From Anaerolineae bacterium (GTDB taxonomy: Bacteria; Chloroflexota; Anaerolineae; Aggregatilineales; Phototrophicaceae), in the NCBI GenBank assembly GCA_026645745.1, contig JAPKMU010000003.1, positions 1 through 44,515 of the forward strand: a DNA stretch of 44,515 nucleotides, in the 5' to 3' direction. Shown piece by piece: positions 16,994 to 40,957 of this stretch. Each line of letters opens with the position of its first letter. The stretch's first letter is position 1. The notes under the pieces were generated by a model that saw only the letters and a program-made list of their open reading frames with translations, was not told where the DNA came from and did not search any database. A program made the translations under genes and the position numbers.

Positions 16994-17392
16994 ATGATGC
17001 AAATGGCGATTGGCTTAAAAACGACGCTTCACATGGACTACGATGCCGCCCTCCAGCGCGTCCTTGAGGCGTTGAAGGCGGAAGGCTTCGGCGTGATCAC
17101 CGAAATCGACGTGAAAGATACGCTCAAGAAAAAGCTCGATCTCGATTTTCACCAGTACCGCATTCTCGGCGCGTGCAATCCGGCGCTTGCGCACCGCGCA
17201 TTAACCACCGCCCCGGATGTCGGGCTGCTGCTGCCGTGCAACGTAACGGTTGTACAGGCGGACAACGGCGTTGACGTAGCGATCATCGACCCGAAGATGA
17301 TGATGAGCGTACTACCGAACGAAGGTCTGCGCGTGATCGCGGACGAAGCGCGGGAACGTTTGGAGCGGGTGATTAAGGCTTTAGAGGCATAG
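16994..17392 (+). CDS. DUF302 domain protein
   Basis: 132 residues, predicted cytosolic. Landmarks of DUF302 (PF03625) are ALQRVLEALKAEGFGVITEIDV near the N-terminus, then HQYRILGACNPALAHRAL and VGLLLPCNVTVV in the centre. The family fold is known but its function is not established. The start region reads TTG ATG ATG CAA ATG; I chose the first ATG (16994), with AGGGAATAGGA about 9 nt upstream. Its 3' end overlaps the end of the convergent kinase gene by 20 bp. Confidence 0.85.
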   Translation: MMQMAIGLKTTLHMDYDAALQRVLEALKAEGFGVITEIDVKDTLKKKLDLDFHQYRILGACNPALAHRALTTAPDVGLLLPCNVTVVQADNGVDVAIIDPKMMMSVLPNEGLRVIADEARERLERVIKALEA

Positions 17393-18368
17393 CGCGCACA
17401 TCGGCTTCGATGAACTGCGCCAATTCGGGAAGCTGATCCAGTCCTCGGCGGCGGATCAAGCGGCGTACGTTCAAGTGTGGCAGTGAACGGGCGAGAAACG
17501 CGAAATCGCGCTGCATATACGGCTGCACCACGCTTAACGGCGTGTTGTAGCTGTCGCATAAATGGGTGATGTAGGCGTGTGCGCTCAGTTGAACAATGAT
17601 CTCACCCGCTGAGAGGGGTTCGACCGTGTTGGTTTCGCCGTAGCGCAAAATGTAGATCGCCGCGACCGGGAGCGGTTCAGAAGTGTTTGCCGACTCAGCC
17701 TCCGCAAACGCGAATTTTTGTGAGCCGTCATAGACGGGCTGCGCGCCTGCTTCATCGCCGCCAACCGCGCGATAGGACTCCGGCAGAAGTTTCAAACGCG
17801 GCGCATTCGGGTAGATCATCACGCGCTGAGATGCCGGATCAACCACCAGCGCGGCTTTGTCATCGCTCAACACGGGATGCCCGCGCCTTGAAAGCGCCGC
17901 CGCCGTCGTCGATTTACCAAAGCCGGACTCGGCGGCGAAGATCACCGCCTGCCCATCCACCGCGACCGCGCTCGCGTGCAGCACCAGCGCTCCCCGCTGG
18001 TTGAGGAGCACCGCCATCGCATCGTTCAGGATGACATCCGTCCATGTTTCTTGCGCTGTGTTTGGTGAACTCAAGATATCGATGTGCGTGCCGTTCGAAA
18101 CGGTGCAAGTCCCCATGGGTGCCCAATTGAAAATCAAACTGCCGCCGCTGACTTGAATCGTCGGGTCAGCGTTCAACGGCAGTGCATCATCGGCATAGTC
18201 AATGCCGATCACGACATCAGGCGGCACATCATTCAAATTCAGTTCAGGAATAGGGAGGCGGACTGTAGATCGAACCGTTACGCCGTCAATCGCGTAACCG
18301 GCAGGTGTCGAAAATAGAAAAGGGCTGCTTGTTGTGCTGTCAGCCCTGTTTGGATCTCGCGTATTCAC
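17373..18368 (-). CDS. HPr-kinase-like kinase of the lasso-peptide cluster
   Basis: 331 residues. The C-terminal half is an HprK-type P-loop kinase: LHASAVAVDG at 130-139, Walker A ESGFGKST at 147-154 and LSDD at 167-170. The first 110 residues are a variable domain. Proteins of this type occur in lasso clusters; ThcoK and PadeK phosphorylate the C-terminal Ser of the precursor (known from the paeninodin group). The precursor here, encoded 24 bp upstream on the same strand, does end in Ser, which fits. The start is GTG at 18366-18368 with GGAA just before; a different start is possible. It could also act on another substrate. Confidence 0.85.
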   Translation of the reverse strand: MNTRDPNRADSTTSSPFLFSTPAGYAIDGVTVRSTVRLPIPELNLNDVPPDVVIGIDYADDALPLNADPTIQVSGGSLIFNWAPMGTCTVSNGTHIDILSSPNTAQETWTDVILNDAMAVLLNQRGALVLHASAVAVDGQAVIFAAESGFGKSTTAAALSRRGHPVLSDDKAALVVDPASQRVMIYPNAPRLKLLPESYRAVGGDEAGAQPVYDGSQKFAFAEAESANTSEPLPVAAIYILRYGETNTVEPLSAGEIIVQLSAHAYITHLCDSYNTPLSVVQPYMQRDFAFLARSLPHLNVRRLIRRRGLDQLPELAQFIEADVRAMPLKP

Positions 18369-18392: not shown

Positions 18393-18527
18393 TTAGCTGC
18401 CGAAGCGGAACATTGCGGTGGGGGTGCCACCAACATCTGGCTGATCACCGTTCATGCTGTTCAAGGTGATATTCTGGACAGAACCATATTGGCGAAGTGT
18501 CGGACGGGTGTACGTCTTCTTCTGCAT
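18393..18527 (-). CDS. Lasso peptide precursor
   Basis: 44 residues starting MQKKTYTRPTLRQYGSVQNI. The leader shows the lasso motif Y-x2-P-x-L-x3-G-x5-T (Tyr6, Pro9, Leu11, Gly15, Thr21) read by the PqqD-like RRE protein. With Thr at leader position -2, cleavage after Leu22 gives a 22-residue core, positions 23-44, beginning NSMNGDQPD. Asp31 would be core residue 9 and would close a nine-residue ring on Asn1. The tail has Arg41 and ends FRFGS with a C-terminal Ser. AAGGATAGGCGCA precedes the ATG at 18527; an upstream in-frame start adds 20 unlikely residues. A core starting at Ser24 (ring to Asp8) is the main alternative. Confidence 0.85.
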   Translation of the reverse strand: MQKKTYTRPTLRQYGSVQNITLNSMNGDQPDVGGTPTAMFRFGS

Positions 18528-18765
18528 TGCGCCTATCCTTCCAATGAAATTGATAACAAGGAGAAAGCAGTGGTGAATGACATCCATTGACTCCCTACAA
18601 AAGAATATATCGAATCGCAGAAGGTGTCAATTTCCCATTTTCGCATATCTGTAAAAAACCCATTGCTCTTAACATCTCTGGCATTTTGCTATGGAATCGT
18701 GCCGCGTTTGCACCTACAATCAGCTTGGATCACTGCTGCACATACAAGTCAAGAGGAACTCAACG
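18528..18765. promoter_or_regulatory. Divergent control region of the lasso cluster
   Basis: This 238-bp gap separates the minus arm (precursor, kinase) from the plus arm (RRE, cyclase, methyltransferase, peptidase). It is clearly more AT-rich than the flanking genes, for example 18597-18670. TTGACT at 18587-18592 is a -35-like hexamer on the plus strand, but no well-spaced -10 could be fixed. It must hold both promoters if the two arms are transcribed separately. Confidence 0.4.
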
Positions 18766-19044
18766 TTGAACTCGCAAACCACCGTTACCGCAACCGCGAA
18801 CCACGTTGCCACCGAAATGCAAGGCGAAACTGTCATCCTGAGTTTCACAACCGGGGAATACTTCGGACTCGATGAGGTTGGGGCGCTAATCTGGAAGAAT
18901 ATTCAACAGCCGACCTCCATCGCGCGGCTGTGCGAGATCATTATGGCAGAATACGACGTTGATGAAGCCCAGTGTATGCAAGATGTTCAGGCGTTGGTGA
19001 CGGAACTCGTCGCTCACGAACTGGCACTCGAATCTTCGTTATAA
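18766..19044 (+). CDS. PqqD-like RRE protein of lasso cluster (B1)
   Basis: 92 residues, the usual size of stand-alone RiPP recognition elements. Hallmarks are GEYFGLDEVGALIWKNI and the helical C-terminal half DEAQCMQDVQALVTELVAHELAL. It should bind the precursor leader through Tyr/Pro/Leu and present it to the B2 protease and cyclase. I chose TTG at 18766 because AAGAGGA lies 8-9 nt before it and the resulting N-terminus fits the family; an in-frame ATG at 18691 would add 25 residues without a good ribosome site. The stop is one base before the cyclase start, so the two are coupled. Confidence 0.88.
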   Translation: MNSQTTVTATANHVATEMQGETVILSFTTGEYFGLDEVGALIWKNIQQPTSIARLCEIIMAEYDVDEAQCMQDVQALVTELVAHELALESSL

Positions 19045-19045
19045 G

Positions 19046-21097
19046 ATGAGCGGCATCGCTGGCAGTGTCGATTTCGGCGGTGCGATCCCGTCCACCGCGC
19101 ATCTCGAAAACCTCCGGTGGATGCTGGAGGAAATGGCACACTACGGCGCAGACCGCACCGGAACATGGATCGGAGCGGGAGCGGCGTTAGGGCACTGCCT
19201 TCAACTGAACGCCCCCGAATCTCCTTATGATGTGCAGCCGCTCCAACGTGGAAACCTCGTCATCACCGCTGATGCACGCTTGGACAACCGCGACGATCTC
19301 AAGCGCGCCCTGAATTTGAGCGACGGCGATCTGCCGCTGACGGATGCCGAGATTCTGCTTGCCGCTTATCACCGTTGGGGATCAGACTGCGCACCGCACT
19401 TGATCGGTGATTTTGCGTTCGTGATCTGGGACGACGCCGAACGCCGCGCTTTCTGTGCGCGGGATCGCTACGGAGTGCGCCCATTCTTCATGATGCACAC
19501 TCCGGGTGAGCGCTTTCTGTTCGCATCACATGAGTGGGCGATCCTGACTCAAGTCTCAGTTCAGGCAAGCGATCTCTACATCGCGCAGATGCTCATGAGC
19601 ATGTTATCGACCGTCAAAGCCGGGGCATATACCAGCCGCTACGAAGGCGTGAGCGTGCTGCCGCCGTCACACACCGCGATCATCACTGCCGAGCGCGTGA
19701 TTCTCAGCCGCTACTGGCAGATCGACGCTGCCCCGGAACTTCACCTGAAAACGGATGAGGATTATATCGACGGTTTCCGTGAGCGGTTTTTACAAGCCGT
19801 TCAAGCCCGCACCCGTTCGCTGTATCCGGTCGCCGCGCATCTCAGCGGCGGACTCGATTCCTCGGCGGTGGTGTGCGCGGCGCGGCATGTTTCGCCCGGA
19901 ACAGAACTTCACACGCTCTACAACATGCCGGATCACCCGGATGCGGACGAACGCCCGTATGTGCAAGCCGTCCTCGATCAAGGCGGGCTGACGCATCATC
20001 ATCAAACACGCTTTCGCAGCACGCTCCCAAGCCAAGCGGAGACAGCGCACGAAGGCATTGACGGATCGATGTTCGCCAACCGCGAAATGCTCGCGCATTT
20101 TCGACCGGATAACGTTCGCACGCTGCTAACAGGCTTCGACGGGGATACGATTGTCCCGTTCGGAACGGAATATCTGTATGATCTGGCACGGATGCAAGAT
20201 TGGGCGGCGTTCTTTCATGAAGCCCGCGCGTTTGCCGATCACAATAAGCGGCGCACACCCGCGACGGAAGCCTCAACCTTGGCGCGCTACGGGCAGCCTG
20301 TTTTTGACGAATGGATCAAAGCGCGGCGGTACGGCGCATATCTTCATGCCCTGACGATGATCAAGCGCGAAACGGGAATTTCACGCTATCACCTGATTCG
20401 CTGGCGTGGGCGATTGTGGCTGCCGCCTCCGCTGCGCGCCGTGCTGGAGCGCGTGCGTCCTTCCGGCTCACTTCCCGCAGCATGGGATGACCTGAACCCG
20501 ACAATTCAACCGGAATTGGCGCGGCGCTTTCGCTTGGACTCAATCGCGCAGCACGATCAACAGGAAGCGCGATCCCTGCGCGAAACACATCTCCGCTTCG
20601 CCGCGCCGGAACACTACGGCGATTCGCTCGACTTGTTCACGAAATTTTATGCGCGTTCCAATGCGGAGGTGCGTCACCCATTCTTAGATGTACGCGTCGT
20701 CGAGTTCCTGCTTGGCACGCCGGGGCATCTTAAGCTGAAAGACGGTTGGAATCGGTATATCGTCCGCCGCGCACTCGATGGGCTGATGCCGCCGTCGGTG
20801 CAGTGGCGCGGAGACAAACCGCACGCGGGCGAGGACTTTTTGAACAATATGAAACGTGAGGACACGCCGCTTATGGAAAGCATCATCTACGGCGATCTCA
20901 GCGACTTTGAAGCCTATCTCGTGCCTTCCGCGCTGCGAACCGTCTACGAGCGCTTTAAGAATCCGCCGGAAAATATGTCGAATTCGGCGCGTTACCGGGA
21001 CGGCTATGTGATCTGGCGCGCGGTCGATGTCGTCGTGTGGGTGCGCGCCGTGCGCCAGCGGGCAGCGGCGTTTGAAGCGCGGCGGGCGGCGTTATGA
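19046..21097 (+). CDS. Lasso macrolactam synthetase, asparagine-synthase-like (C protein)
   Basis: 683 residues. The protein resembles AsnB but starts MSGIAGSVDF: Cys2 of the glutaminase is replaced by Ser, so it should not hydrolyse glutamine, as is usual for lasso cyclases. The ATP-binding loop HLSGGLDSSAVV lies near residues 264-275. It would adenylate the side chain of the ring acid (Asp9 of the core) and join it to the core N-terminus. The start is one base after the RRE stop, and the last codons overlap the methyltransferase start as ATGA. A second AsnB homologue at 186-2123 has the intact Cys2 and is the true asparagine synthetase. Confidence 0.92.
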   Translation: MSGIAGSVDFGGAIPSTAHLENLRWMLEEMAHYGADRTGTWIGAGAALGHCLQLNAPESPYDVQPLQRGNLVITADARLDNRDDLKRALNLSDGDLPLTDAEILLAAYHRWGSDCAPHLIGDFAFVIWDDAERRAFCARDRYGVRPFFMMHTPGERFLFASHEWAILTQVSVQASDLYIAQMLMSMLSTVKAGAYTSRYEGVSVLPPSHTAIITAERVILSRYWQIDAAPELHLKTDEDYIDGFRERFLQAVQARTRSLYPVAAHLSGGLDSSAVVCAARHVSPGTELHTLYNMPDHPDADERPYVQAVLDQGGLTHHHQTRFRSTLPSQAETAHEGIDGSMFANREMLAHFRPDNVRTLLTGFDGDTIVPFGTEYLYDLARMQDWAAFFHEARAFADHNKRRTPATEASTLARYGQPVFDEWIKARRYGAYLHALTMIKRETGISRYHLIRWRGRLWLPPPLRAVLERVRPSGSLPAAWDDLNPTIQPELARRFRLDSIAQHDQQEARSLRETHLRFAAPEHYGDSLDLFTKFYARSNAEVRHPFLDVRVVEFLLGTPGHLKLKDGWNRYIVRRALDGLMPPSVQWRGDKPHAGEDFLNNMKREDTPLMESIIYGDLSDFEAYLVPSALRTVYERFKNPPENMSNSARYRDGYVIWRAVDVVVWVRAVRQRAAAFEARRAAL

Positions 21098-22260
21098 GCG
21101 ACTTCACACGCGACGGTTACAAGGTCGCTGATTATGGATTTATGGCGGGGGATCTCGTGCGCGTGCAGGCATACGCCGACGCGATGCGCCGCGTGATCAC
21201 GCCTGAAACCGTCGTCTTGGAGATCGGCACGGGTTCGGGGTTGTTCGCCATGCACGCCTGCCAGCTTGGAGCGAAGCGCGTTTACGCGATTGAAGTGGAG
21301 GATGCGGTCGAAGCCGCGCGCGAAAGCGCCGCCGCTAACGGCTTCGCGGATCGGATCACGTTTTATCATGCCGCCTCGACTCAGGTCACGCTCCCCGAAC
21401 TTGCCGATGTGTTGATCAGCGACTTACGCGGGACGCTCCCGCTGCATAACCATCACCTCGAAACGATCCGCGATGCGCGGGCGCGCCTGCTCAACCCCGG
21501 CGCGCTTCAACTTCCGCAGCAGGATACGATTTTCTTTGCGCCGGTGTACGCGCCGGAAAGTTATCAAGATCGCGTCGAGCCTTGGAAGAAGAATCCGTTC
21601 GGGCTGAACATGGACGCGGGGCGCAAAACGACGATCAACACGTACTTCACACACCGCGTTAAACCGGAAGAAATCATCCTGCCCGCTCAAACATGGGCGG
21701 AGATCGACTACTGCCGCGATGATGCGCCGCTTAACTACGCCCATACGCTGACATGGACAATCGATCAACCGCTCGTCGTTGATGCGCTGCAAGGCTGGTT
21801 TGAGGCGCGCATTTATGATGAGATTGGCTATCGCACCTCCCCGGATCAACCGAGGCTGGCATACAACACCGCCTATTTCCCGCTCGAACAACCGGTGAGC
21901 GTACAAGCGGGAGAAACTTTAAGCGTGTTCATGCGGGCGGATAATCACGGTGGCTTGTATACGTGGTCATGGAAAACGCGGGTGATTGGCGCGGATCAAC
22001 GGGAGCGGATTTCCTTTCAGCAGTCTACATTTTTCGCCAGCGTGGGCAGCCTTCGCCAGCGTGCGCCGATGTACCAGCCCGGTTTGAGTCGATCCGGGAT
22101 CATCGACGGTACGATTCTCACGTGGATGAACGACGGCGCAGCAGTCGCGGAGATCGCGCGGCGCTTAATGGCGCAGTTCCCCGATGTGTACCCAGATACA
22201 GGTGCGGCACTCGCCAAAGCCGGGAATATGTCCATCCGTTACGGGAATCACGCACCATGA
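21094..22260 (+). CDS. PRMT-like SAM methyltransferase of lasso cluster, with RRE-like C-terminus
   Basis: 388 residues. Motif I VLEIGTGSGLFAMHACQLGA (41-60) with acidic Glu67 after KRVYAI, and the segment ADVLISDLRG then ARARLLNPGAL, follow the class I fold of protein arginine methyltransferases. The double-E loop SEWMG of PRMTs is SDLRG here (109-113), so the substrate may differ. A beta-barrel-like part follows (about 160-325). The last about 55 residues (from ~333: GTILTWMNDGAAVAEIARRL, then FPDVYPDTGAALAKAG) resemble a PqqD winged helix, perhaps a fused leader-binding domain; this is pattern recognition only. ATGA overlaps on both sides bind it into the operon. Likely target: Arg41 or a carboxylate of the precursor. 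Confidence 0.82.
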   Translation: MSDFTRDGYKVADYGFMAGDLVRVQAYADAMRRVITPETVVLEIGTGSGLFAMHACQLGAKRVYAIEVEDAVEAARESAAANGFADRITFYHAASTQVTLPELADVLISDLRGTLPLHNHHLETIRDARARLLNPGALQLPQQDTIFFAPVYAPESYQDRVEPWKKNPFGLNMDAGRKTTINTYFTHRVKPEEIILPAQTWAEIDYCRDDAPLNYAHTLTWTIDQPLVVDALQGWFEARIYDEIGYRTSPDQPRLAYNTAYFPLEQPVSVQAGETLSVFMRADNHGGLYTWSWKTRVIGADQRERISFQQSTFFASVGSLRQRAPMYQPGLSRSGIIDGTILTWMNDGAAVAEIARRLMAQFPDVYPDTGAALAKAGNMSIRYGNHAP

Positions 22261-22703
22261 TTCGCCAGTGGGCACGACTTTCCGGCGCGCGGCGCGGTGC
22301 GCTGATCCGCGCCCTTCCATTGATGATCGCTGTCCGTGTGTGGCTGTGGGTTGTGCCGCTCCGGTATTGGCAGTCGCAGTTGAAGCAGATGATGAGCGGA
22401 TCTGGGGCAGCCGACGAAAAAGAATCGACTGCCGCGATCACATGGGCAGTTGAGCGCATCGGGCGCATCCCGCCCATGACCTGCCTCGTGCAAGCGATTG
22501 CCGGGTACATCCTGCTCCGGCGCTCTGGCGTATTCTCGCGGCTTCGCATCGGCGTCCGCCGTGATGGGGATCAATTTCGCGCGCACGCATGGCTGGTCAA
22601 CGCCCGCGATGAAGTGCTGATCGGCGGACAAAACGGTTTAGGCACGTTCGCCGCCTTCGACTTCGATTCGAATACAGCCTCCACGTTCTTGAAGTCCCTT
22701 TGA
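22257..22703 (+). CDS. Lasso leader peptidase, transglutaminase-like (B2)
   Basis: 148 residues, typical of stand-alone B2 proteins. The catalytic pattern is RIPPMTCLVQAIA (Cys76) and FRAHAWLV (His110), with Asp118 as candidate third residue. It removes the leader after the residue following the conserved Thr, in complex with the RRE protein. The ATG at 22257 overlaps the methyltransferase stop as ATGA; a longer frame reaching 21963 is inside the methyltransferase gene and not used. No exporter gene (D protein) follows, so export must depend on a transporter elsewhere. Confidence 0.9.
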   Translation: MIRQWARLSGARRGALIRALPLMIAVRVWLWVVPLRYWQSQLKQMMSGSGAADEKESTAAITWAVERIGRIPPMTCLVQAIAGYILLRRSGVFSRLRIGVRRDGDQFRAHAWLVNARDEVLIGGQNGLGTFAAFDFDSNTASTFLKSL

Positions 22704-22805: not shown

Positions 22806-25800
22806 ATGACCCGTATTCGTTCTGCGCTCATGCTTTGTTTGTTTGCCGCCTTTCTGCTCAGCGCCGCTTTGCCCGTCCACGCGACGTATTTTTCGGTCGG
22901 CTGCACGAATGGCGTTGGCGATGTCGCCCAATTTCGGGCACATATCAACACTGCCATGAGCAGCGGCGGCACGGATACGATCTGGCTTGCGCCGGACTGC
23001 ACGTATACGCTCACACAGCCGCTGACTATCGGGGCAGGGACAGCGCAGTCGCTCACGATACAGGGGCAAGGCGGGACGGTGATCAGCGGGAATAACGCTG
23101 TGCGCGTGTTCAACATTACCGCCCCAACCATCCCGATCACGCTGCAAACCATGACGATACAAAACGGGTACGCGACCAGCGGCGCGGCGGCGATCCATGC
23201 GGGCAACAGTTCAAACCTCACGCTCGACAACGTGACTGTGCGTAATAATCGCGTGTCGTATGGTGGTACTGGGTACGGATACGCCGCAATTTATGCTTAC
23301 GGTGGCTGGCTGACGATCACCAATTCAACGATCATCGACAACGACGGGTTTTATGGCGGCGCAGTTGCAGCGGAACGCGCACTCGTCCAAATCAGCAGCA
23401 GCACAATCCGCAGGAATACGGCAGTCGGTCCGGGCGGCGGGTTATACATCCTCGGTCGGACTTATCTCGTATTCGATCTGACTGTTACCAGCAGCACCAT
23501 CAGCGAAAATATCGCTCGAGGTTCCCTAGGGGGCGGCGGCGTTTATCTGCTTGGGCAGGACACTGGCGCGCAGTTTTCAAACACACGCATCACCAATAAT
23601 TATGGGGGAACAGGCGGCGGCATTTTCGCTTCCAGCGCCGATCTCTCGTTGATCAACACGATCGTGAGCGGCAATCTATCAGGACCCGGCGGCGGCATTT
23701 ATATCGACGGTTACGATCCCGATGTCACGATTTCCGGCTCGACCATCAACGGCAACCGTTCGCTGACGTTAGGCGGAGGCATGGACGCGACGGTCAACAT
23801 GTACGGCTCATTGTCGATCAGCACCAGCACCTTTGCCGGAAACCGCGCCCAGACGGGCGGCGCGGTGCGTGGGATCGGCATGACCACGATTGCGGATGCG
23901 ATCATGAGCGGCAATTATGCCAGCCTAAGCGGCAGCGCGCTTGAAGGGTCGATCTTTGACGTGGATCGAAGCGCCTTTATTGGCAATCGTACCGAAACGA
24001 GCAGCGCAATCTATGCCGCTTTTGGGAGTGATGCTTACATCACCGAAGTTGACGCAAGCTGTTTTGAAGGAAATACGCCCTATGCGATGCTTACCCGCCC
24101 TAACGCATATGATTTGCGCGCCGACGGCAACTGGTGGGGCGACCCGACCGGACCCGGCGGCGAAGGTTCGGGCTTTGGTGATGCCGTCGGCGCGCATGTG
24201 ATTTTCGCGCCGTTCTTGACCAGCCCTCCGGCGGCATGCCAAAACCTACCCACTGACTCTGTTGTGAGCATGTTCGCCGCCCCGCCGTACTTGATCGAAG
24301 GCGGCACGGGCACGCTCACAATTATGCGTGAGATTCCGACAAACGCCCCGCTCACAGTGAACTTCACACGCGGCGGCACAGCGAATGCAGAGGATTATAT
24401 ACTCCGCATGAACGGCACGGACATCACGGGCGATTCGATCACCATTCCAGCAGATCACGGGTTCGCGCCGATTGATTTTGTCGCCGTGCGCAACTTTCGG
24501 GACGAGCAGCAGAATGATACGGTGATTCTCACGCTGGTCGATGATCCCACGTACACCGTGACGGATTATGCGCGTTCAATAGAAGTCGAGATTGAGGACT
24601 ATGATGTCTCGCGGGTGTGGCTGTACTCTCTGATACCCGTTCCGTCCACGCTGATCGAAGGCGAGACGCTGACATATGAGGTCAACATTACGACGATCCC
24701 GTATGCGGATGTGACCGTGACCGTGCATTTTGACCCGGCAGAAGTCGCGATCAACGGGGAGACGGACGGGAGCGTTGATCTGGTATTCAACGAGTCCAAT
24801 TGGAACACGCCGCAGACGCTTATGGTCACGGTGGTCGATGATGCTGTGCCGGAAAACGAATGGGTGTATCAGTTCCTAGAAGCGACGACGATCACGCATA
24901 CCGTTACCAGCGCCGATGCGCTCTACAACGGCTACCCTGTCCCAGACTTCCCGCTCAACATCCGCGATAACGATGTCGATATTTGCGCGGTACAGGATCA
25001 GATTCCGGTCAGCGAATGCCGCGCCCTGATCGACCTCTACGAATCGACCAACGGCGATGGGTGGACGAATCGCGGCGGCTGGCTGGAAGGAACCACGATT
25101 TGCGGCATGTGGGAAGGCGTGGTGTGCGAGTACCTGCCCCCGGCGGGCGGCGATCCGCTGGTGACGCCCGAGCCGAATGAATGGGCGAATGTCGTCGGCT
25201 TGGAGCTGTCCCAGAACAACCTGACCGGCACGCTGCCCGATTCATTCATTAACTTGTCCCATCTGCGCTATGTAAACATGCATTCAAATGCTATCACCGG
25301 CACACTGCCTGAGTTGGAAAGCCTAAGCGAGCTATATAGTTTGAGTTTGTCTAGAAATCAGCTCAACGGGGAAATTCCGTCGCTGCCTTCGGAAATCGTA
25401 ACGATACTCCTTGCGCACAATCAATTGACAGGTAGTATTCCTGAGATAGCAGGTCTGAGCGCGTTGATTCAATTAGAACTCCACGATAATCAACTGAGCG
25501 GCGAAATTCCACCGCTGCCTCCCACACTGTATTCACTGGCGCTCGACGATAATCTGCTGAGCGGATCGATTCCACCGCTGCCTGCCGCCCTGAACTATTT
25601 CTCGGCGTCGAGCAATCAGTTGACCGGATCAATTCCCACGCTGCCGCCAATCCTCGAATATCTGTTTCTAGACAACAATCAGCTGACTGGCTCACTTCCC
25701 CCACTGCCAGAAAGTCTGATTATCATTCAGGTACCACAGAATGACATGACCGGATCGATTCCCCCTCTGCCTCCCAGCCTGATAGCGCTCGGTGTGGCTG

Positions 25801-26843
25801 GCAACCAGTTCTCCGGCGCACTGCCAGAGTTTCCCGCTCCGCTCTTGTTCATAGACGTCGCGGACAACGCCCTAACCGGGGTCGTTCCACCCTCGATTAC
25901 TCAGACCGCCATCTCCGAGCCCCATTATATGCGCAACCTCTATCTCTGCGGCGGCGAAAATGACCTCGCCTCCGATGACCCGGCGGTGAATACGTTCATT
26001 GAAGCGTATGCGCCGGGATGGTCACCCCTCAACGGCTGTCTGCCGCGCCTGTCGGTGATCGATGTCGTCGATGTCGTGCCTGATCCGCCAGTCGCGCCTG
26101 TCGGTTCGGTGGATGTGATCCTGTCCGAACTCGCGGACATCTCGACTTTCACCTATCAAGACGTGACGCTGATGCGCGGTTCGACTCCGGTCACGCTCGA
26201 TTCGTCGGTCACGGTTGCGCTGCACGACGCGCCGACGTTCACCTACCGGATCAGCGGGCTGACGTCGTTCACCACGCCGTTTGGGGTGTACACGCTTACG
26301 GTGAACGCAGCAGGGCTGCGCGATCAATTCGGTTTGCTGCCCACGTCACCAAGCACCGCCAGCGAGACGTGGACATGGGTCGAAACCGGATCGCTCACCG
26401 TTGAAGTCGATCTGCAAGGACGACCCGCCGCGCCCCATGCGAGTTATCTCATTCCGGTTGATGTGACGCTTGAGACGGCGGGCGGTGACACCGTGCTGCA
26501 CGAGACGATCACGCTCGATACTTACGGCATGTTTGCGCTGAATAACCTGATCCCCGGCAATTACACGCTGCGCGTCAAGCCGTCCAACGGGCTGGCGCTC
26601 AGTCAAGCGATCACCTTGACGAGCGGCGCGAACAGCGTGTATATGGGCATGATCCCAACTGGAGATGCGAACGGCGATAACCGTGTCAGCTTACTCGATT
26701 TCTCACTGCTGGCGCAGGCATTTGGCACGAGCCAAGGCGCACCGGGGTATAACCCTGCGGTGGACTTCAATGGCAACACGGTGATCGATCTGCTCGATTT
26801 TTCGGCGCTGGCGTCGAATTACGGCACAGCGGGCGCAGACTGA
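22806..26843 (+). CDS. Large secreted beta-helix / Calx-beta / LRR / dockerin protein
   Basis: 1345 residues. Order: signal peptide (1-26, ending VHA), right-handed beta-helix (about 50-470) with repeated NGGGIYI-like and ITNSTI-like turns and a NWWGDPTGPGG end motif, two Calx-beta-like domains (about 485-725), then an LRR region (about 727-1060). The LRR part starts with the cap CRALIDLYESTNGDGW and has about ten 21-24 residue units of the plant type (NQLTGSIPPLPPSL). A beta-sandwich part follows, and a dockerin with two calcium loops (GDANGDNRVSLLDF, VDFNGNTVIDLLDF) ends it. It should be exported and may bind polysaccharide, a surface or a cohesin partner. Its stop lies inside the 25-bp repeat described below. 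Confidence 0.9.
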   Translation: MTRIRSALMLCLFAAFLLSAALPVHATYFSVGCTNGVGDVAQFRAHINTAMSSGGTDTIWLAPDCTYTLTQPLTIGAGTAQSLTIQGQGGTVISGNNAVRVFNITAPTIPITLQTMTIQNGYATSGAAAIHAGNSSNLTLDNVTVRNNRVSYGGTGYGYAAIYAYGGWLTITNSTIIDNDGFYGGAVAAERALVQISSSTIRRNTAVGPGGGLYILGRTYLVFDLTVTSSTISENIARGSLGGGGVYLLGQDTGAQFSNTRITNNYGGTGGGIFASSADLSLINTIVSGNLSGPGGGIYIDGYDPDVTISGSTINGNRSLTLGGGMDATVNMYGSLSISTSTFAGNRAQTGGAVRGIGMTTIADAIMSGNYASLSGSALEGSIFDVDRSAFIGNRTETSSAIYAAFGSDAYITEVDASCFEGNTPYAMLTRPNAYDLRADGNWWGDPTGPGGEGSGFGDAVGAHVIFAPFLTSPPAACQNLPTDSVVSMFAAPPYLIEGGTGTLTIMREIPTNAPLTVNFTRGGTANAEDYILRMNGTDITGDSITIPADHGFAPIDFVAVRNFRDEQQNDTVILTLVDDPTYTVTDYARSIEVEIEDYDVSRVWLYSLIPVPSTLIEGETLTYEVNITTIPYADVTVTVHFDPAEVAINGETDGSVDLVFNESNWNTPQTLMVTVVDDAVPENEWVYQFLEATTITHTVTSADALYNGYPVPDFPLNIRDNDVDICAVQDQIPVSECRALIDLYESTNGDGWTNRGGWLEGTTICGMWEGVVCEYLPPAGGDPLVTPEPNEWANVVGLELSQNNLTGTLPDSFINLSHLRYVNMHSNAITGTLPELESLSELYSLSLSRNQLNGEIPSLPSEIVTILLAHNQLTGSIPEIAGLSALIQLELHDNQLSGEIPPLPPTLYSLALDDNLLSGSIPPLPAALNYFSASSNQLTGSIPTLPPILEYLFLDNNQLTGSLPPLPESLIIIQVPQNDMTGSIPPLPPSLIALGVAGNQFSGALPEFPAPLLFIDVADNALTGVVPPSITQTAISEPHYMRNLYLCGGENDLASDDPAVNTFIEAYAPGWSPLNGCLPRLSVIDVVDVVPDPPVAPVGSVDVILSELADISTFTYQDVTLMRGSTPVTLDSSVTVALHDAPTFTYRISGLTSFTTPFGVYTLTVNAAGLRDQFGLLPTSPSTASETWTWVETGSLTVEVDLQGRPAAPHASYLIPVDVTLETAGGDTVLHETITLDTYGMFALNNLIPGNYTLRVKPSNGLALSQAITLTSGANSVYMGMIPTGDANGDNRVSLLDFSLLAQAFGTSQGAPGYNPAVDFNGNTVIDLLDFSALASNYGTAGAD

Positions 26844-38347: not shown

Positions 38348-40957
38348 ATGGCGAAAACCCAATCGCGCTATGTCTGTCAAAACTGCGGGCGGCAGTCCCC
38401 GCGTTACATGGGACGCTGCCCCTCGTGCGGTGAATTCAACACGATGGTTGAAGAAGTGACGGAAGTCGTCAAGGCGGGGTCGCGCAGCAGTACCCGCGCG
38501 CGTCCCGTGCTTCCGAGCAGCCGTCCGCAGCGCTTGAAAGAGATCGGCGTCGAAGACCTGAAGCGTTATTACGTGCCGATTGGCGAGTTCAACCGCGTAT
38601 TGGGGGGTGGGCTTGTGCCGGGCAGCATCACCTTGATCGGCGGCGAACCGGGAATCGGAAAATGCGTTTCGGCGGATACATGGATACAAACCGATCGGGG
38701 CTTGATGCGTATCGGGGATTTGTCTAATCCAGTCGAAGGCTTTTCATGCCTTGAACTGACTGTCAAATCGACCGATGGCGGACGCTCCACCAGCCATTTC
38801 TATAACGCCGGTGTGCAGCCGATCAAGCGGTTGACGACGCGCATGGGGTATCAAGTGCAAGGTACGTACACCCATGCCGTACTGACTCTCTCCAAAGACG
38901 GATGCCGCACATGGACAGCCCTTCAAGACCTTCAACCCGGTGACTATGTTGCAATACAGCGACACGGTGCGGTGTGGGGGAACAAAACAGCGTTTCTACC
39001 GCTGTCTGATGCTCCGATTCACCCAAATTTCCCAACCCATCTTGAGCCGGAAACAGCGTATGTGTTGGGGCTGCTCATCGGCGACGGTTCGCTTGGCGGG
39101 GAGCATGACGTCGGACTGACCACCAATGACCCGGAAATTCAGCAGGTGTATGTGGATTGGGCAGCATCACTGGGTCTGCACGTCTCAATCAGCAGCAAAA
39201 CCGGTACGACAGCGAAGAGTCTGCGCATCAGCAGTAAGCGACTTATTCGCTGGTTGGGTCACATTGGGGTACCGATGTGCAAGTCGTACACGAAATCGAT
39301 CCCAACCTGCATTTTGGAATCGAACGAAGAAAACGCACGTGCATTTCTGCAAGGCGTTTTTGACACGGATGGATCGTCGTATCCGCTGGGGGTCGATTTT
39401 TGCACCGTTTCGGAGACTCTGGCGCGGCAGGTTCATTTGCTGCTGCTTCAGTTTGGGATTGTTGGAAAACTGCGATTCAGAGCAAATTCCTATGCCGGAG
39501 CTTGGATCGTTTCCATGCAAGGCAGTAATGCGCGCCTGTTTTATGATCGAATTGGCTTCCGGTTGGCGCGCAAACAGGCAAATCGAGCGCTGCTGCCGGA
39601 AACGAACAATAACAATCTTGACGTGATTCCGTATCTGCCAAGCACTGATCCATTCCGCATCCCTCAAGATAAAAGGTTTGATCGCCGTTATTTACGCGGC
39701 ACACGGGCGGCAAGTTACGAAAAACTCACAGCGATCACCGAGTTTATTCCGGAGTATGCCGACCTGCTCACCCCGCCGTTCTTCTGGGACAAGATCGAAA
39801 GCGTCGAGGATGCGGGCGCAGCCGACTGCTATGACTTGTGTGTTCCCGAAACACATGCTTACGTGACCAATGGCATTGTCAGCCACAATTCAACCCTCGT
39901 GATTCAAACCGCCGCAACAATGGCAAATAGTGTCGGGCGCGTCCTGTATGTGAGCGGCGAAGAAAGCACGCGGCAGATCAAAATGCGCGCCGACCGCCTC
40001 GGCTTACAAGCGAATGATCTATTCCTGCTCACCGAAACCAATCTCGCGGACATCCTCGAACAGGTCAACGAAATCGATCCGACCGTCGTTGTGATCGACT
40101 CGATCCAAACGATCTACACCGAAGAAAGCGAGTCATCGCCGGGGAGCGTGTCGCAAGTGCGCGAGTGCGCCTCGCGGTTGCAAATGCTCGCCAAAACCAG
40201 CGGCACGAGCGTCTTTTTGATCGGGCATGTCACCAAAGAAGGCGCAATCGCCGGTCCGCGTGTGCTGGAGCATATCGTCGATACGGTGCTGTACCTCGAA
40301 GGCGATCCGTTTCAGGCGTATCGTCTGCTGCGGAGCGTCAAGAATCGCTTCGGCGCGACCAGCGAGATCGGCGTATTCGAGATGAGCGGCTTGGGCATGA
40401 TCGAAGTCCCGAATCCGAGCGAAGTATTTATCGCGGAACGGGTGATGAACGCCCCCGGCACGTCAATTGTGGTGACGATGGAAGGCACGCGCCCGCTGTT
40501 GGTCGAAGTACAGGCGCTCACCAGCCCAACCTCATTCGGCAATCCACGCCGCACCCCCAACGGTGTTGATATGAGCCGCTTGTTGATCATCGCGGCGGTG
40601 CTCGCCAAGCGGTTTGGACTCAAGCTGCATGAGCAGGATATTTTTCTGAACGTGATCGGCGGCTTGAAGCTCGACGAACCCGCCGTAGACCTGTCGATGG
40701 CAATGGCGATTGCATCCAGCTACTACGAAAAACCGCTCCCCAACGACATGGTATTCATCGGGGAAATCGGTTTGAGCGGTGAGTTACGTCCGGTATCCCA
40801 GTTGATCGCGCGCTTAAACGAAGCCGCGAAGATGGGCTTTCAACGCGCGATGATCCCGCGCATGAAAAAAAGACCGAACGATGCGCCGGAGGGCTTGAAA
40901 TTGATCGAAGCGCGCAACGTCGGTGAAGCGCTGGCGATTGCCGTGCCGAAGGATTAA
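38348..40957 (+). CDS. radA: DNA repair protein RadA (Sms) interrupted by an intein
   Basis: 869 codons, of which 460 are RadA. The N-extein (1-105) has the zinc finger CQNCGRQSPRYMGRCPSCGEF and the start of Walker A, GGEPGIGK. The intein (106-514) follows, then the C-extein resumes with Ser515 of GK-S-T. Later landmarks are VVIDSIQTIY (Walker B), VKNRFGATSEIG (the KNRFG motif) and a Lon-like C-terminal domain (VGGLKLDEPAVDLSMA-type sequence). RadA is a DnaB-like helicase that extends branch migration during recombination. Because the insertion splits the ATP site, RadA should be inactive until splicing. The ATG at 38348 lacks a strong Shine-Dalgarno. Confidence 0.96.
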   Translation: MAKTQSRYVCQNCGRQSPRYMGRCPSCGEFNTMVEEVTEVVKAGSRSSTRARPVLPSSRPQRLKEIGVEDLKRYYVPIGEFNRVLGGGLVPGSITLIGGEPGIGKCVSADTWIQTDRGLMRIGDLSNPVEGFSCLELTVKSTDGGRSTSHFYNAGVQPIKRLTTRMGYQVQGTYTHAVLTLSKDGCRTWTALQDLQPGDYVAIQRHGAVWGNKTAFLPLSDAPIHPNFPTHLEPETAYVLGLLIGDGSLGGEHDVGLTTNDPEIQQVYVDWAASLGLHVSISSKTGTTAKSLRISSKRLIRWLGHIGVPMCKSYTKSIPTCILESNEENARAFLQGVFDTDGSSYPLGVDFCTVSETLARQVHLLLLQFGIVGKLRFRANSYAGAWIVSMQGSNARLFYDRIGFRLARKQANRALLPETNNNNLDVIPYLPSTDPFRIPQDKRFDRRYLRGTRAASYEKLTAITEFIPEYADLLTPPFFWDKIESVEDAGAADCYDLCVPETHAYVTNGIVSHNSTLVIQTAATMANSVGRVLYVSGEESTRQIKMRADRLGLQANDLFLLTETNLADILEQVNEIDPTVVVIDSIQTIYTEESESSPGSVSQVRECASRLQMLAKTSGTSVFLIGHVTKEGAIAGPRVLEHIVDTVLYLEGDPFQAYRLLRSVKNRFGATSEIGVFEMSGLGMIEVPNPSEVFIAERVMNAPGTSIVVTMEGTRPLLVEVQALTSPTSFGNPRRTPNGVDMSRLLIIAAVLAKRFGLKLHEQDIFLNVIGGLKLDEPAVDLSMAMAIASSYYEKPLPNDMVFIGEIGLSGELRPVSQLIARLNEAAKMGFQRAMIPRMKKRPNDAPEGLKLIEARNVGEALAIAVPKD
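38663..39889 (+). mobile_element. RadA intein with LAGLIDADG homing endonuclease
   Basis: 409 residues in frame within radA. Splicing residues are intact: Cys1 in CVSADTWIQTDRGLMRIGDL (block A), T-x-x-H in GTYTHAVLTL (block B), and CYDLCVPETHAYVTNGIVSHN at the end (blocks F and G, His-Asn), followed by Ser+1. The central part contains the two LAGLIDADG motifs LGLLIGDGSL and FLQGVFDTDGSS, each with its acidic residue, so both splicing and homing could work. The insertion point lies between Lys and Ser of Walker A, a conserved site that inteins favour in P-loop ATPases. Confidence 0.95.

Follow-up and report, generated by a model that had tools for sequence, protein, structure and literature searches.

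The window analysed here, a 44,515-nucleotide stretch of DNA from an Anaerolineae bacterium, carries a complete lasso-peptide cluster that includes a methyltransferase with the protein arginine methyltransferase (PRMT) fold. The PRMT fold is best known from arginine methylation in eukaryotes, where a pair of Glu residues grips the guanidinium. A PRMT-like enzyme without these arginine-gripping residues, whose relatives lie beside unusually methionine-rich peptides, suggests a novel type of peptide methylation. We propose that the PRMT fold was taken over for lasso tailoring as a leader-guided peptide methyltransferase. Its three-helix tail would serve as a pared-down RRE-like element that binds the leader (or B1), and the enzyme would act, alongside an HPr-type kinase, while the precursor is still linear, ahead of lasso closure by B2 and the cyclase. 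That the tail docks in this way and the enzyme acts on the linear precursor, that arginine is no longer methylated in the PRMT manner, and that the methyl group goes to the C-terminal tail of the core are, taken jointly, evenly poised between right and wrong in our judgement.

The methyltransferase ORF (21094–22260, + strand) encodes 388 amino acids from an ATG start to a TGA stop, in the gene order B1, cyclase, methyltransferase, B2, and overlaps both neighbours by a few bases. B1, a PqqD-family leader-binding protein (18691–19044, +; start codon uncertain), was assigned by profile matches, the asparagine-synthase-type lasso cyclase (19046–21097, +) by NF033535 (3e-150; 501.9 bits, just missing the cut-off of 525), and the B2 leader peptidase (22257–22703, +) by NF033537, above its cut-off. 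On the opposite strand, just upstream of that run, lie the precursor (18393–18527, −; 44 amino acids) and an HPr-type precursor kinase (17373–18368, −), in which H, GKS and DD are present and the first Gly of the GxxGxGKS motif is replaced by Ala. The precursor was recognized by motif reading and by a match of NF033528 (lasso_cyano) to residues 23–41 of its 64-residue ORF, which missed the cut-off (1.5e-5; 24.8 bits against 33). Its leader reads YxxPxL...T(-2) and its inferred core NSMNGDQPD-VGGTPTAMFRFGS, with core D9 as the ring acceptor. A preliminary description of this DNA, made from the letters alone, had placed the methyltransferase in a RiPP context and reported a single core Arg at precursor residue 41; both statements were borne out, with residues 8 and 12 of the leader being Arg as well.

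Directly downstream of the cluster (22806–26843) is a 1345-residue, secreted-looking protein with LRR and dockerin repeats. Elsewhere in the window, a second asparagine-synthase-type amidotransferase was identified by Pfam at 189–2204, with no adjoining lasso genes noticed, and a RadA/Lon-like AAA protein (38348–40954) is split by an intein with a LAGLIDADG domain. The same genome holds a second lasso cluster (contig C634, locus L239) with B1, B2, cyclase and HPr-type kinase, without a PRMT-fold enzyme and with a likely core that has no Met.

The PRMT-like SAM fold, recognized earlier from the order of motifs, was confirmed by Pfam, phmmer, AlphaFold2 and Foldseek. Pfam matched PrmA (3.3e-10) and PRMT5_C (2.7e-8), both above their cut-offs, and a phmmer search of PDB sequences gave PRMT8 as the best match (9.5e-24), followed by PRMT7, PRMT2 and PRMT1. 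The full-length AlphaFold2 model, built with 26 aligned sequences, had a mean pLDDT of 93.6, and the best 50 Foldseek matches listed for it were all PRMTs, with PRMT1/6/8 at the top (TM by target length ≤0.85). Sequence and model both place a SAM domain ahead of the PRMT beta barrel. Near full-length homologues occur in related genomes (E down to 6.5e-92), which argues that the gene is more than a chance reading frame. With the type I fold of PRMT1/6/8 the enzyme shares the Rossmann SAM domain and beta barrel, the N-terminal helices, and the DxxR and GxGxG motifs. Unlike PRMT1/6/8, it is encoded in a bacterial lasso cluster, has an added C-terminal three-helix domain, and is changed at the active site. 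The SDLRG reading of the double-E loop proved correct (S109-D-L-R-G113, 21418–21432, +, at the place of SE-x-x-G); alignment with relatives whose double-E loop is complete puts D110 (codon 21421–21423, +) at the place of the first Glu and N119 (21448–21450, +) at that of the second, and the THW-loop position reads L255-A-Y257.

Single-protein scans of viral and genome contigs found no relative. An alignment of four sequences was used as query against the genomes of ∼85,000 species, from which at least 80 loci were kept. Four of 400 genomes from the window's phylum, its own included, carried a homologue at E ≤1e-25, as did 29 of 396 at E ≤1e-45 in the phylum of the Acidobacteria locus L026. Among 100 relatives besides the window's own genome, three had a homologue of nearly full length, in each case with lasso genes next to it; related-genome matches below the level of about E 1e-11 resemble general methyltransferases and, although kept in the neighbourhood table, were left out of the counts. 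After removal of near-copies, 105 methyltransferase rows among the matches listed were classed by their neighbours, 38 as lasso-linked and 67 as not, with L039, L145, L150 and L160 (kinase but no cyclase in view) counted as lasso-linked and L082 and L085, whose LasC-type matches were taken as ordinary amidotransferases, counted as non-lasso. The lasso-linked loci came from the window's relatives and from records titled Acidobacteria, cyanobacteria (Nodosilinea), Gemmatimonadetes, proteobacteria, Myxococcales and Planctomycetota. On a tree of 104 rows, built with the catalytic loop excluded by a quick method that left many forks open, the lasso label changed 5 times against a shuffled mean of 31; the label is therefore strongly clustered and recruitment to lasso loci appears to have been rare.

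An HPr-type kinase accompanied 37 of the 38 lasso-linked rows. The same kinase was found in 13/20, 16/33 and 12/17 enzyme-free lasso B2 loci from three control sets, where several loci end early at contig ends and where L214 and L224, having no B2, had been dropped from a set of 35. The notion of the kinase as a partner specific to the methyltransferase was toned down, and since the kinase is frequent in enzyme-free lasso loci we make no claim that methylation needs phosphorylation. One cluster (L107:166–3484) has its precursor flanked by two HPr-type kinase genes.

The C-terminal region of the enzyme (residues 322–388; 22057–22257, +) is a lasso-specific domain, delineated by model, profile, Foldseek and VIA-align. 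Helices span residues 333–346, 351–361 and 369–383 of the full model, and the region formed three helices without strands both there and when folded alone, i.e. it is a domain of its own. A tail profile matched 31 of the 38 lasso-linked rows vs 1 of the 67 others, so 31 of 32 tail-bearing homologues are lasso-linked; the concern, raised in the preliminary description, that homologues might occur mainly outside RiPP clusters holds for tail-less relatives only. The single non-lasso match, L034, keeps the double Glu, and its 11.8 kb showed no lasso genes. Seven lasso-linked rows gave no tail match: L109 is cut by a contig end, and L036, L045, L159, L163, L164 and the second copy in L149 end 12–39 residues past the barrel with no matching domain. 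Four of these (L036, L159, L164 and the second L149 copy) reach no further than 12–32 residues beyond it, so the tail is not essential in all lasso-linked enzymes. Two loci have unusual gene structures. At L045:7836–8936 the leader and core of a precursor continue in frame into the tail-less methyltransferase as a single 367-residue ORF, though seven consecutive A where the two meet make a sequencing error possible; at L183:5777–6662 the N-terminal part of a cyclase is joined to the end of a tailed methyltransferase, in what looks like a collapsed or deleted locus.

The tail had been described as resembling a PqqD winged helix, and this stood in part. Besides the separate domain, the ranking of fold neighbours agreed with it: Foldseek with the tail alone against 350,542 PDB chains placed a lasso B1–leader complex first (6jx3_B, E 1.6) and PqqD third (3g2b, E 2.8), at chance-level scores and with no match at E ≤0.001. 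The winged helix itself did not stand, as the tail has no predicted beta strands and is thus not a full PqqD/RRE fold. PF05402 (PqqD) was matched by 6 of 17 tails at E ≤10 (best 0.0078, sub-threshold), hhalign of the tail profile with ten of the loci's own B1 proteins gave 2% probability, and VIA-align returned Z scores of 6.3 (PqqD), 6.0 (6jx3) and 5.8 (TbiB1) that lie below the tool's own trust level and are equalled by unrelated helical domains. The weak resemblance is to the helical half of stand-alone lasso B1 and PqqD (RRE) proteins, from which the tail differs in its missing strands and a sequence link below threshold; judging from the models, it may be the helical half of an RRE with the docking function kept. 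Since the domain is almost confined to lasso-linked homologues, a leader-docking role is plausible. The tail could instead mediate dimer contacts or the docking of B1, B2 or the cyclase, a reading with a real, if minority, chance of being correct: the weak scores to RRE folds, the want of leader-clasping strands and the stand-alone B1 also encoded in the cluster would suit it, but the best fold neighbours are B1 and PqqD, the domain is tied to lasso loci, and the precursor of L045, sequencing error permitting, lies in frame ahead of an enzyme that has no tail.

The Glu pair is kept in 4 and gone from 34 of the 38 lasso-linked rows (alignment of tree rows). In its place stand D-x in the window's clade and a second clade, V/A-E in a third clade, and N-gap in L045. 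Non-lasso rows on the tree kept Glu/Glu in 59 of 66 cases; among the seven exceptions, five from Streptomyces and Streptosporangium loci read D/M, one reads E/P, and L033, an orphan placed within the window's clade, reads D/R. The window's clade has D110 in 18/18 rows and R or H112 in 17/18, and keeps the SAM-binding residues E/D43, G45, G47 and G49. The actinobacterial PRMT-like rows L055, L071, L072, L074 and L077, which are not lasso-linked and lie mostly inside long ORFs, have Asp/Met for the double Glu and keep SHW.

Precursor cores were readable for 31 of the 38 lasso-linked rows and numbered 36, chosen by eye among pattern matches. Seven rows had no readable precursor (L043, L145, L150, L157, L158, L160 and the second copy in L149); a doubtful L157 candidate was dropped, and the L186 precursor was left out of the counts. 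Cores counted but doubtful, by their boundary or for want of an acceptor acid, are those of L149 and L153 and the second of L152, and the counted L045 core has no stop after it. The controls, 23 cores in all, were drawn from lasso loci that lack the enzyme: 16 are from Acidobacteria and 7 from among the relatives of the window's genome, counting that genome's second lasso cluster; L215, a near-copy of L182, was dropped, and antisense- or leaderless-looking pattern matches were discarded by eye. Leaders had Y/WxxPxL-like motifs with T, V or I at −2, and in most cores position 8 or 9 was Asp (Glu in one), the likely ring acceptor.

The four double-Glu loci (L154 and L155, which are near-copies, their relative L156, and L164, which stands apart) yielded six cores, each with 2–5 Arg and no Lys, and Met in one. 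Arg was present in 10 of the 27 other loci with a readable precursor. Among the 30 cores of these enzymes without the Glu pair (non-EE), 10 contained Arg, 22 Lys and 27 Met. Met was found in 3/23 enzyme-free cores (Fisher p 1.5e-8 against 27/30, with the rows sharing ancestry) and made up 9.7% of residues in non-EE cores vs 0.8% in enzyme-free cores. It was the sole residue enriched among the 20 tested; Glu, Tyr, Pro and Trp were rarer than in enzyme-free cores, and Lys and Arg taken singly did not differ significantly. Met recurs in each non-EE lineage while the surrounding positions vary, which argues for selection on Met itself. The tree offers one or two independent EE/non-EE contrasts, which is not enough for a sign test. 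In the second clade, cores finish with Cys-Leu (RACL, SPCL, GTCL, RVCL and GMCL in L035, L037, L041, L149 and L151).

The leading candidate for the acceptor, which we put forward tentatively, is the tail methionine, M39 of the precursor, as an S-methyl sulfonium. Thioether methylation needs no general base and so fits the loss of both Glu, and methylation of Met is the sole reading that explains the Met signal in the cores. Three of the 30 non-EE cores have no Met, which counts against it, and R112/H112 beside D110 in the window's clade would be odd for a sulfonium product. The broader statement that the PRMT fold in lasso pathways lost its Arg clamp repeatedly and switched to the Met thioether, with a stripped-down tail for leader docking, is doubtful. 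S-methyl-Met is known in one RiPP, longipeptin A, according to the available sections of that report, where the proposed Met S-methylation is ascribed to LopH, assigned without a knock-out (PMC11285071).

Two other acceptors are serious rivals, each only a little less likely than the tail Met. The C-terminal carboxylate, O-methylated to a methyl ester at Ser44, is the sole acceptor common to all cores whatever their sequence. R/H112 beside D110, with His/Asn/Ser at 120–121, could bind the anion in the window's clade, and a StspM-like product made on a different fold would have precedent in StspM, as far as the available part of that report goes (PMC8498205). Esterification leaves both the Met enrichment and the pairing of double Glu with Arg-rich cores unexplained, however, and R112 is not kept in other non-EE lineages. 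Side-chain N-methylation close to the C-terminal end, on Arg41 in the window's core and on Lys, often as K-T, in most relatives, is about as likely as esterification and would agree with the Lys or Arg of 28/30 non-EE cores, within the last five residues in 18/30, and with the LRT ending of the double-Glu L164 core against NKT, SKT or DRT in window-clade relatives. A PrmA-like SAM domain would suit lysine, as PrmA methylates lysines of ribosomal protein L11. Yet Lys or Arg is barely commoner than in enzyme-free cores (16/23 at any position, 10/23 within the last five residues), the L037 and L147 cores have neither, and the window's core has Arg as its one basic residue type while its enzyme is without the Glu pair.

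Arg41, named as a plausible target in the preliminary description, lost ground. A true PRMT-type Arg41 methyltransferase with a changed but working active site would account for the fold, for the single core Arg in the tail position and for the four lasso-linked relatives that have both Glu and Arg in every core; with D110/N119 for Glu/Glu, L255-A-Y257 for THW, and same-clade relatives such as L106, L026, L027, L029 and L030 whose cores have no Arg, we regard it as very unlikely. Arg as a general target was rejected, as 20/30 non-EE cores have none, and so was a ring-Asp/aspartimide route, the extra ring Asp not being conserved across cores read by eye.

Wherever the methyl group goes, the enzyme most likely acts, by analogy, while the precursor is still linear and uncut, guided by its own tail and/or B1. 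StspM, a lasso C-terminal O-methyltransferase, acts on the linear precursor (PMC8498205), as do lasso kinases, of which BsfK is sped up by B1 (PMC10368454), in the available parts of those reports. By motif and place the window's kinase belongs with the HPr-type lasso kinases PadeK, ThcoK and BsfK; the accessible portions of the accounts of their clusters do not describe this methyltransferase. StspM and the lassomycin-type carboxyl methyltransferases are likewise encoded in lasso clusters, but the StspM type was modelled on mitomycin 7-O-methyltransferase with His/Glu catalysis in the part of the source available (PMC9266682), and is set apart here by its published description. The LihM-type aspartimide-forming methyltransferases, also of lasso clusters, belong to the PIMT family and not to the PRMT fold, and modify a ring Asp of the already threaded lasso according to the accessible text of a 2026 review of interlocked peptides (PMC13352647). 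That text makes no mention of a PRMT-fold lasso enzyme (PMC13352647), and no paper on one was found in the parts available of the open-licence literature, subscription papers being outside the scope.

If the Met reading is true, the pathway would yield a lasso peptide whose threaded tail bears a bulkier residue with a permanent charge, an S-methylmethionine sulfonium. The natural series from double-Glu enzymes with Arg-rich cores to Glu-less enzymes with Met-rich cores would make acceptor choice testable, and the three-helix tail raises the question of how little of an RRE suffices for leader binding. If our proposal is right, the PRMT fold would be a recurrent lasso tailoring enzyme across several phyla.
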